Of a DNA stretch of 38,112 nucleotides, positions 13,075 through 15,248 are shown piece after piece; the stretch's first letter is position 1; each line of letters opens with the position of its first letter. The DNA is from Achromobacter dolens (GTDB taxonomy: Bacteria; Pseudomonadota; Gammaproteobacteria; Burkholderiales; Burkholderiaceae_B). Under the pieces are notes generated by a model. The model was not told where the DNA came from and did no database searches. It saw nothing but the letters and a program-made list of their open reading frames with translations. Position numbers and translations under genes: made by a program. Location of the stretch: contig NZ_CADIJW010000052.1 of the NCBI RefSeq assembly GCF_902859745.1, positions 1-38,112 of the forward strand, in the 5' to 3' direction.

Positions 13075-14160
13075 ATGCAGCTGACCCTGGACAGGATTGC
13101 GTTGCGAGCCGGCTCGCAGACGCACCTGTATCCCATGAGCCTGGCCCCCGTGCCGGGCGCCATGACCGTGTTGCTGGGGGTGACCCTGGCGGGCAAGACA
13201 TCGCTGATGCGCATCATGGCCGGGCTCGACCGGCCCACCGAGGGCCGCGTGCTGGCCGACGGCGTCGACGTGACCGGGGTGCCGGTGCGCCAGCGCAACG
13301 TCGCCATGGTGTACCAGCAATTCATCAACTATCCGTCCATGACGGTGTTCGACAACATCGCCTCGCCGCTCAAGCTGCGCGGCGCGTCGGGTATCGCCGA
13401 CAAGGTCGGGGCCATGGCCGCGCGCCTGCACATCGACCACCTGCTGGCCCGTCATCCGTCTGAACTGTCCGGCGGGCAGCAGCAGCGGGTGGCGCTGGCG
13501 CGGGCCCTGGTCAAGGACGCGCCGCTGATCCTGCTGGACGAACCGCTGGTCAACCTGGACTACAAGCTGCGCGAGGAACTGCGCGACGAGCTCTCGGCCC
13601 TGTTCGCCGAGGGCCGCTCGACCGTGGTCTACGCCACCACCGAGCCGGGCGAGGCGCTGCTGCTGGGCGGCCACACCGCCGTGCTGGACGCGGGCGAACT
13701 GCTGCAGTACGGCCCGACCGCCGAGGTCTTTCACCGGCCCAATTCGATCCGGGTGGCGCGCGCCTTCAGCGATCCGCCCATGAACCTGTTCGCCGCGCAG
13801 CGCGACGCCGCCGGCTTCACGCTGCAGGGCGGCATCGCGGTCGCGCGGCCACTGCCGCCGGGCGCGGGCGGGGCGCTCACCGCCGGCTTGCGGGCGGGCG
13901 CGTTGGACATTGCGCCGCGCCCTGGCCACATCGGCCTGGACGGCGTGGTCAAGCTGGCCGAGATCTCCGGGTCCGACACCTTCGTGCACGCCGAAACGGC
14001 CGCCGGCGACGTGGTCGCGCAATTGCCGGGCGTGCATCGCTACACGCTGGAGCAGCGCCTGACGCTGTACTTCGACCCGGCCCAGACCTACGCCTTCGGC
14101 GCCGACGGCGCCTTGCTGGCGGCCCCCGCCCGACCCCACGCCAGCGGAGGGATCGCCTGA
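13075..14160 (+). CDS. glpS: Glycerol ABC importer ATPase GlpS (degenerate Walker A and H-loop)
   Basis: This 361-residue MalK-type ATPase belongs to the GlpSTPQV glycerol importer known from Rhizobium leguminosarum. Its Walker A is GVTLAGKT (35-42) instead of GPSGCGKS/T, and the H-loop reads YATTEPGEA, with Thr189 where His is expected. The Q-loop Gln81, the signature LSGGQQQ (131-137) and Walker B LILLDEP (151-157) are intact. A C-terminal OB-type regulatory domain follows from about 235. The start at 13075 has GAGGAGA just upstream. An in-frame ATG at 13036 lacks a good ribosome site. The stop overlaps the glpT start. Confidence 0.92.
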   Translation: MQLTLDRIALRAGSQTHLYPMSLAPVPGAMTVLLGVTLAGKTSLMRIMAGLDRPTEGRVLADGVDVTGVPVRQRNVAMVYQQFINYPSMTVFDNIASPLKLRGASGIADKVGAMAARLHIDHLLARHPSELSGGQQQRVALARALVKDAPLILLDEPLVNLDYKLREELRDELSALFAEGRSTVVYATTEPGEALLLGGHTAVLDAGELLQYGPTAEVFHRPNSIRVARAFSDPPMNLFAAQRDAAGFTLQGGIAVARPLPPGAGGALTAGLRAGALDIAPRPGHIGLDGVVKLAEISGSDTFVHAETAAGDVVAQLPGVHRYTLEQRLTLYFDPAQTYAFGADGALLAAPARPHASGGIA

Positions 14161-15248
14161 TGGCGCAGATCGAGCTGGACCTCTCCCATTCCTACGTCGC
14201 CAATCCCCAGGCCGATGAGGACTACGCGCTGCTGCCGCTCAAGTTCACCTTCCGCGACGGCGGCGCCTACGCCTTGCTGGGTCCCTCGGGCTGCGGCAAG
14301 ACCACCTTGCTCAATTGCGTCTCGGGCCTGCTGCGTCCCTCGCACGGCCGCATCCTGTTCGACGGCCAGGATGTCACCCACAAGACGCCGCAGGCGCGCA
14401 ACATCGCCCAGGTGTTCCAGTTCCCGGTGGTGTACGACACCATGACCGTGGCCGAGAACCTGGCGTTCCCGCTGCGCAACCGCGGCGTGCCCGCCAAGCA
14501 GATCCGCGAGCGCGTCGGCCGCATCGCCGAGATGCTGGAGATGTCGCACGTGCTGGAGCGCCGCGCCAGCGGCCTGACGGCCGACGCCAAGCAGAAGATC
14601 TCGCTAGGGCGCGGCCTGGTGCGCAACGACGTGTCGGCGGTGCTGTTCGACGAACCGCTGACCGTGATCGACCCGCAACTGAAGTGGGAATTGCGCCGCA
14701 AGCTCAAGGAAATCCACCACGAGTTCAAGCTGACGCTGATCTACGTCACCCACGACCAGACCGAGGCGCTGACCTTCGCCGACCAGGTGATGGTGATGGC
14801 GCGCGGCCGCGCGGTGCAGGTGGGCAGCGCCGACGACCTGTTCGAGCGGCCGGCGCATACCTTCGTCGGCCATTTCATCGGCTCGCCCGGCATGAACTTC
14901 CTGCCGGCGCAATGGCGCGACGGCGGCCTGATGGTGGGCCAGCGCCGCGTCGACGGCCTGCCGGATGCGATGGCGACCCGGCTGGCCGACGCCGGCCCGG
15001 TCAAGCTGGGCGTGCGCCCGGAATACCTGCGCCTGGCCGACGCCAACGCGCCTGGCGCCATCCCGGCCACGGTCCAGCGGGTGCAGGACGTGGGCACCTA
15101 CACCTTGCTGCTGGCCGACTTCGAGGGCACGCCGCTGCGCGCCCGCCTGGGCACCGACGCGGCATCCATCGCGCCCGGCGCCACGGTCTGGCTGTCGGCG
15201 CTCAATCCGCATACCTGCTTCTACCGCGACGAGGAGCTGATCCGATGA
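14160..15248 (+). CDS. glpT: Glycerol ABC importer ATPase GlpT (degenerate signature motif)
   Basis: The 362-residue second MalK-type ATPase has a normal Walker A GPSGCGKT (41-48), Q-loop Gln87, Walker B VLFDEP (161-166) and H-loop His198 in YVTHDQTEA. Its ABC signature is LTADAKQK (139-146) instead of LSGGQ-like, and the D-loop reads TVID. These gaps are complementary to those in GlpS, as expected of an obligate heterodimer. A C-terminal OB-type domain follows from about 235. It starts one base into the glpS stop (TGATG). This GlpT is an ATPase and is unrelated to the E. coli glycerol-3-phosphate antiporter of the same name. Confidence 0.92.
   Translation: MAQIELDLSHSYVANPQADEDYALLPLKFTFRDGGAYALLGPSGCGKTTLLNCVSGLLRPSHGRILFDGQDVTHKTPQARNIAQVFQFPVVYDTMTVAENLAFPLRNRGVPAKQIRERVGRIAEMLEMSHVLERRASGLTADAKQKISLGRGLVRNDVSAVLFDEPLTVIDPQLKWELRRKLKEIHHEFKLTLIYVTHDQTEALTFADQVMVMARGRAVQVGSADDLFERPAHTFVGHFIGSPGMNFLPAQWRDGGLMVGQRRVDGLPDAMATRLADAGPVKLGVRPEYLRLADANAPGAIPATVQRVQDVGTYTLLLADFEGTPLRARLGTDAASIAPGATVWLSALNPHTCFYRDEELIR

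Follow-up and report, generated by a model that had tools for sequence, protein, structure and literature searches.

ABC dimers of MalK-type geometry assemble each ATP site from the Walker A motif of one subunit and the signature motif of the other, and the MalK and UgpC ATPases do so as homodimers. Ding et al., in 2012, are said to have described GlpSTPQUV of Rhizobium leguminosarum VF39 as an ABC importer of glycerol. A citing paper places glpD and glpK on the flanks of the R. leguminosarum glpSTPQUV genes (PMC7912956), and a study of a Ralstonia strain records that the same-named glp genes rise on glycerol (PMC11223650). By analogy with these systems, glycerol would be the substrate of the importer in the strain studied here. 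The literature that we searched, from which most subscription papers were absent, among them that of Ding et al., yielded no description of the motif asymmetry between GlpS and GlpT.

The glp locus and its two ATPase genes

The window, that is, the whole stretch of 38,112 nucleotides of Achromobacter dolens DNA that was analysed, contains an operon-like run of six genes opened by glpS and glpT and encoding two ATPases, two permeases, a DUF2160 protein and a binding protein (Table 1). Genes overlap at the glpS/glpT and glpT/glpP junctions. The names glpSTPQUV were taken from the R. leguminosarum operon, by whose order the DUF2160 protein is GlpU. This protein had no NCBIfam match at E 1e-5, and it found a 100% match in A. 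ruhlandii LMG 1866 in a search from which very near records may be absent.

Linked glpR and glpD genes are present, as in the R. leguminosarum-type importer. R. leguminosarum WSM2304 carries the same six transporter genes in the same order and with the same GlpS and GlpT motifs (read from the translations), flanked by a DeoR/GlpR regulator, glpD and glpK. In the window, by comparison, glpR and glpD point away from glpS, and a catB-like gene follows glpV instead of glpK. The catB-like gene lies on the opposite strand to glpV; its profile match begins at residue 64, and the true start of CatB is probably internal to the annotated frame.

Both ATPases resemble MalK. Their predicted monomer folds matched MalK over nearly the full length, with MalK-like structures at the top among the matches listed for each model, and UgpC was the best NCBIfam match of each protein, below the cut-off. 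At the C-terminus, Pfam placed OB_MalK and TOBE_2 above the cut-off in GlpT, and TOBE_2 above the cut-off with no OB_MalK match in GlpS. A quick tree with long branches put GlpS and GlpT within the MalK-like clade (SH-aLRT 98).

Table 1. Genes and ATPase motifs of the glp locus in window coordinates. Counts refer to the 165 distinct GlpS/GlpT pairs described in the text.
Feature	Position	Strand	Basis
GlpD-like glycerol-3-phosphate dehydrogenase	10351..11949	-	DAO + DAO_C; best NCBIfam match glycerol-3-phosphate dehydrogenase, below cut-off
GlpR-type regulator, divergent from glpS	12053..12844	-	DeoRC + HTH_DeoR; best NCBIfam match DeoR/GlpR, below cut-off
glpS (GlpS, MalK-type ATPase, 361 aa)	13075..14160	+	translated from window
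GlpS Walker A GVTLAGKT, residues 35-42	13177..13200	+	script-checked; GxxxxGK[ST] in 165/165
GlpS signature LSGGQQQ, 131-137	13465..13485	+	script-checked; SGGQ in 165/165
GlpS Walker B LLDEP, 153-157, catalytic Glu present	13531..13545	+	Asp-Glu in 165/165
GlpS H-loop YATTEP, 186-191, Thr189 replacing His	13630..13647	+	His absent in 165/165
glpT (GlpT, MalK-type ATPase, 362 aa)	14160..15248	+	translated from window
GlpT Walker A GPSGCGKT, 41-48	14280..14303	+	script-checked; GxSGxGK in 165/165
GlpT altered signature LTADAKQK, 139-146	14574..14597	+	neither 141 nor 142 Gly in 165/165
GlpT Walker B LFDEP, 162-166	14643..14657	+	Asp-Glu in 165/165
GlpT H-loop YVTHDQ, 195-200, with His198	14742..14759	+	His in 165/165
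GlpP permease	15245..16135	+	PF00528; start overlaps glpT stop
GlpQ permease	16128..16940	+	PF00528
DUF2160 small membrane protein	16957..17265	+	PF09928, 127.8 bits
GlpV binding protein	17377..19107	+	PF01547
CatB, type B chloramphenicol O-acetyltransferase	19374-20213	-	NCBIfam NF000490, 423 bits, cut-off 350

Complementary motif losses among GlpS/GlpT pairs

To collect relatives, we searched with a marker blind to the ATPases, DUF2160 (PF09928). Of 398 genomes sampled from the phylum, 85 carry it, and these same 85 also contain GlpT (E up to 1e-85), the two lists being matched by eye. This search supplied 84 phylum loci besides our own. Another 80 named DUF2160 loci, 79 of them usable, and eight GlpT-anchored loci, our own included, completed the set of 171 usable loci (163 via DUF2160 and 8 via GlpT), 79 of which were found through close similarity to the window's own DUF2160 protein. 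The 171 pairs reduced to 165 distinct ones. Two loci were left out of the counts, one without an ABC frame (L009) and one cut by a contig end (L136), and the pairs from Streptomyces and R. leguminosarum stand outside the 165. In one Cupriavidus record (L158, 3149-5154) the GlpT match is split over two frames, so that the GlpT frame is broken; this locus was counted by its first GlpT piece, which carries the motifs.

Translation and a script check confirmed every motif and residue number that the initial annotation had given for GlpS and GlpT, and the co-occurrence of the substitutions, which it had proposed as a check, was seen in every pair tested. All 171 usable loci have both genes, and in each distinct pair the two share a strand, with glpS upstream. 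GlpS retains SGGQ and lacks the H-loop His, while GlpT retains Walker A and the His and lacks both signature glycines; these complementary losses were found in 165 of 165 distinct pairs. The number of independent events behind this co-occurrence is small, as the features show hardly any variation and each of the two proteins forms a single clade. The Q-loop Gln of GlpT is likewise present in every pair. By alignment, the A-loop adds a further asymmetry, with Ala12 and no aromatic residue in GlpS as against Tyr12 in GlpT. All 15 criteria applied to the pairs were passed by 164 of the 165; the exception, L060, failed solely because it is the one pair with an aromatic residue at the GlpS A-loop position. 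The GlpS Walker A had been called both odd and crippled, and the first description stands while the second does not, as the minimal P-loop pattern still fits throughout (Table 1).

The same motifs occur in a GlpS/GlpT pair of Streptomyces chartreusis, outside Pseudomonadota; they were read from the translations, and the genes lie on a 1.16 Mb linear plasmid.

Single ATPases of the same genome served as controls. SGG and the His were retained in 22 of 22 examined (L180-L197 and L213-L216), these 22 and the 38 control stretches overall being hand-picked from 150 scored matches in the genome; L213-L216 had been taken as possible fused ATPases, and each proved to hold one ABC domain. Set against the complementary losses in every GlpS/GlpT pair, the consensus state of these single ATPases indicates that the pattern is not due to chance.

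A partial second DUF2160 match was seen in 6 of the 398 genomes (L094-L099), beside a different transporter whose single MalK-like ATPase was fully consensus in all six cases. These loci were kept outside the 165, and they indicate that a DUF2160-like protein can occur without the two-ATPase design.

The altered motifs have conserved cores, AD and KQ in GlpT and T[TS]E in GlpS. Within the phylum sample of 84 genomes, GlpT position 141 is Ala in 78 and Pro in 6, position 142 is Asp in 83 and position 144 is Lys in all 84; GlpS position 189 is Thr in 79 and Ser in 5, position 190 is Glu in 83 and position 191 is Pro in 81. The GlpT D-loop, TVIDP, is invariant in this sample. Other positions of the altered signature are partly free or consensus-like: 140 is Thr in 58 genomes, Ser in 17, Gly in 5 and Ala in 4, and 143 is Ala in 30, Glu in 22 and Gln in 21. 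The conserved cores indicate that the loss is not recent decay, and conservation of this kind would not be expected of a site free from selection; an exporter review makes a similar argument for its degenerate sites (PMC7756269).

These data bear on the reading that the pattern reflects drift, with one or both ATPases on the way out, or that GlpS and GlpT belong to separate homodimeric transporters. Long stem branches (1.37 changes per column for GlpS and 1.59 for GlpT), the variability of GlpT 140 and 143 and the broken GlpT frame of the Cupriavidus record would all suit drift. We nevertheless judge this reading highly improbable, given the near invariance of GlpT 142 and 144 and of GlpS 189 and 190 and the presence of both genes at every usable locus, and neither of two separate homodimers would possess one fully consensus site. 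Judged by motif content, a site with every consensus motif is formed only in the GlpS-GlpT heterodimer, as had been proposed.

Predicted composite ATP sites

From the motifs, their co-occurrence and conservation, the synteny and the predicted monomer folds, we infer that GlpS and GlpT likely form an obligate heterodimer in a type I (maltose-transporter-like) glycerol importer, with a consensus site that hydrolyses ATP and an altered one at which ATP probably binds and is poorly hydrolysed. The two proteins would not be interchangeable. If the motifs face each other as in MalK-type dimers, the consensus site would comprise Tyr12, Walker A, the Q-loop, Glu165 and His198 of GlpT opposite the LSGGQ of GlpS, and ATP would be hydrolysed here. 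The altered site would comprise the P-loop, Q-loop and Walker B of GlpS, without the His or the A-loop aromatic, opposite the altered GlpT signature. At the level of sequence, the pair thus has the feature of the degenerate-site class, an altered signature in one subunit against an altered Walker A and H-loop in the other.

The initial annotation had regarded this second site as fully degenerate. That description is ruled out by GlpS itself, in which the P-loop Lys/Thr, the Q-loop Gln and the Walker B Asp-Glu are intact in 165 of 165 distinct pairs. As its P-loop and Walker B are still present, the altered site is most likely to hold bound ATP and to hydrolyse little of it: MgATP would probably still bind, and its hydrolysis would be slow or absent.

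The same residues of GlpS mean that the second site may hydrolyse. Both composite sites would then turn over ATP, the altered one more slowly, with Glu156 of GlpS as the general base and Thr189-Glu190 partly standing in for the H-loop. In the exporter review, replacement of the Walker B Glu ranks second in frequency among changes at degenerate sites of human proteins (PMC7756269); no such replacement is seen here, in keeping with two-site hydrolysis. However, the opposing GlpT signature lacks both glycines in every pair, and GlpS lacks the H-loop His, which is called essential in LptB in another report (PMC6703430). Taking these points together, we find two-site hydrolysis decidedly unlikely.

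A different role for the altered site would be that of a nucleotide sensor, with the pump rate set by the ATP/ADP ratio, rather than a passive clamp. Conservation of the core altered positions would fit such a role, as would five loci (L068, L071, L072, L076 and L089) in which the Walker A, Q-loop and H-loop of GlpS and the signature of GlpT have changed jointly, GlpS reading GxTGxGKT, VHQF and YATSEP together with LSPDNKQ in GlpT. Parts that face each other would be expected to change jointly in this way, in both halves of the altered site. The five loci may be one evolutionary event, however, and Pfam gave no extra regulatory domain, with weak AAA-type matches besides the ABC domain and the MalK-type C-terminal domain, so that we consider a sensor doubtful, if conceivable. 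These five loci also come nearest to restoring the consensus, since Gly38 is back in their GlpS Walker A, but they still have Thr37 and carry Ser in place of the His; no relative among the 165 pairs has regained all motifs, in agreement with the initial annotation.

Returning to the reading with one hydrolysing and one ATP-holding site, the altered site would serve as a permanent clamp or hinge, the dimer would open at one side in each cycle, and one ATP would be spent per stroke. The number of ATP molecules used per substrate, and the need for both sites, are hard to test in homodimers, in which one gene makes both sites. In GlpS and GlpT the contributions to the consensus and the altered site are divided between two genes, on a MalK-like fold that is structurally well known, so that each site could be disabled separately.

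Asymmetric ATP sites in other transporters

The initial annotation had also considered this asymmetry uncommon among importers whose ATPases are encoded by separate genes. Comparison with LivG/LivF and RbsA rules out such rarity. LivG/LivF pairs, which are encoded by separate genes, had the GlpS/GlpT polarity in 30 of 30 phylum loci examined, one of them (L222) this genome's own query pair, and RbsA-like fused ATPases had it in 30 of 30; each set (together L222-L281) consists of 30 loci from one search of a 200-genome draw and leans towards close relatives. The LivG/LivF and RbsA proteins of E. coli K-12 have the same polarity. Within this genome, which has at least eight LivG-like genes, adjacent pairs of branched-chain or urea type agreed in 6 of 6 examined (L198, L199, L200, L201, L206 and L217); by best NCBIfam match L198 and L201 are LivG/LivF, and one protein of L217 is UrtE. 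One degenerate site had already been remarked in RbsA and NupO of B. subtilis in a published study (PMC11466899).

Two ATPases do not by themselves imply asymmetry. Ten two-ATPase systems of this genome, which we take to be of peptide-importer type (four adjacent pairs, L202-L205, and six fused proteins, L207-L212), retained SGG and the His in both halves in 10 of 10 examined.

The three asymmetric families differ in detail. In all 30 LivG/LivF pairs, LivG retains the His and has L[APS]YG in place of LSGG, LivF retains SGG and has Gln in place of the His, and the Walker B Glu is retained in both. LivG has therefore lost only the first signature glycine, whereas GlpT has lost both; LivF, unlike GlpS, has a canonical Walker A and reads Glu at the Q-loop Gln. 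RbsA-type proteins carry both halves in one polypeptide, in contrast to the two separate genes of GlpS and GlpT. Their second Walker A has Arg instead of the Lys that GlpS retains, and their first half sometimes keeps the second signature glycine, while the second-half H-loop, [ST]SE, resembles the T[TS]E of GlpS. Both halves retain the Walker B Glu. Across the LivG/LivF and RbsA-like sets, the first signature glycine was always replaced and the second only sometimes.

GlpS and GlpT lie inside the MalK-like clade and LivG and LivF on a separate branch of the quick tree, which does not show descent from LivG or LivF and indicates that the GlpS/GlpT asymmetry arose separately. We put forward, tentatively and as a possibility that we do not yet favour, that importers have a lopsided-site kind of their own, which evolved on two or more occasions, and on three according to the tree, whose deepest forks are weak (GlpS/GlpT, LivG/LivF and RbsA-like). 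One ATPase would lack the first signature glycine (both in GlpT) and the other the H-loop His, and both would retain the Walker B Glu, while exporters mostly alter the signature and the Walker B Glu. The H-loop would have converged on [ST]-[ST]-E in GlpS and the RbsA-like proteins, and the altered site would serve as a conserved hinge that holds ATP and allows an importer to use one ATP per substrate. The structural consequence looks little explored: a search of our PDB copy with E. coli RbsA returned no chain at E 1e-40, and one with LivF returned four distinct sequences, whose names say no more than ABC or branched-chain ATP-binding protein.

Among known systems, MalK and UgpC (CUT1) share with GlpS and GlpT the fold, the MalK-type C-terminal domain and the clade; they differ in that one gene gives two equal consensus sites, as opposed to two genes with complementary losses. 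The exporters TM287/288, TAP and Pdr5 likewise have one site in which an altered signature faces an altered partner, with H-loop changes as well, according to the exporter review (PMC7756269). The Walker B Glu change is frequent but not universal among degenerate-site exporters in the same review, whereas Glu156 of GlpS is intact in 165 of 165 pairs, and the exporter transmembrane fold contrasts with that of GlpP and GlpQ, both PF00528 and of importer type. The three families suggest a rule whereby importers dispense with the H-loop His and some of the signature but spare the catalytic Glu. This importer pattern, with the signature altered, the His lost and the Glu kept, is different from the commonest exporter pattern.
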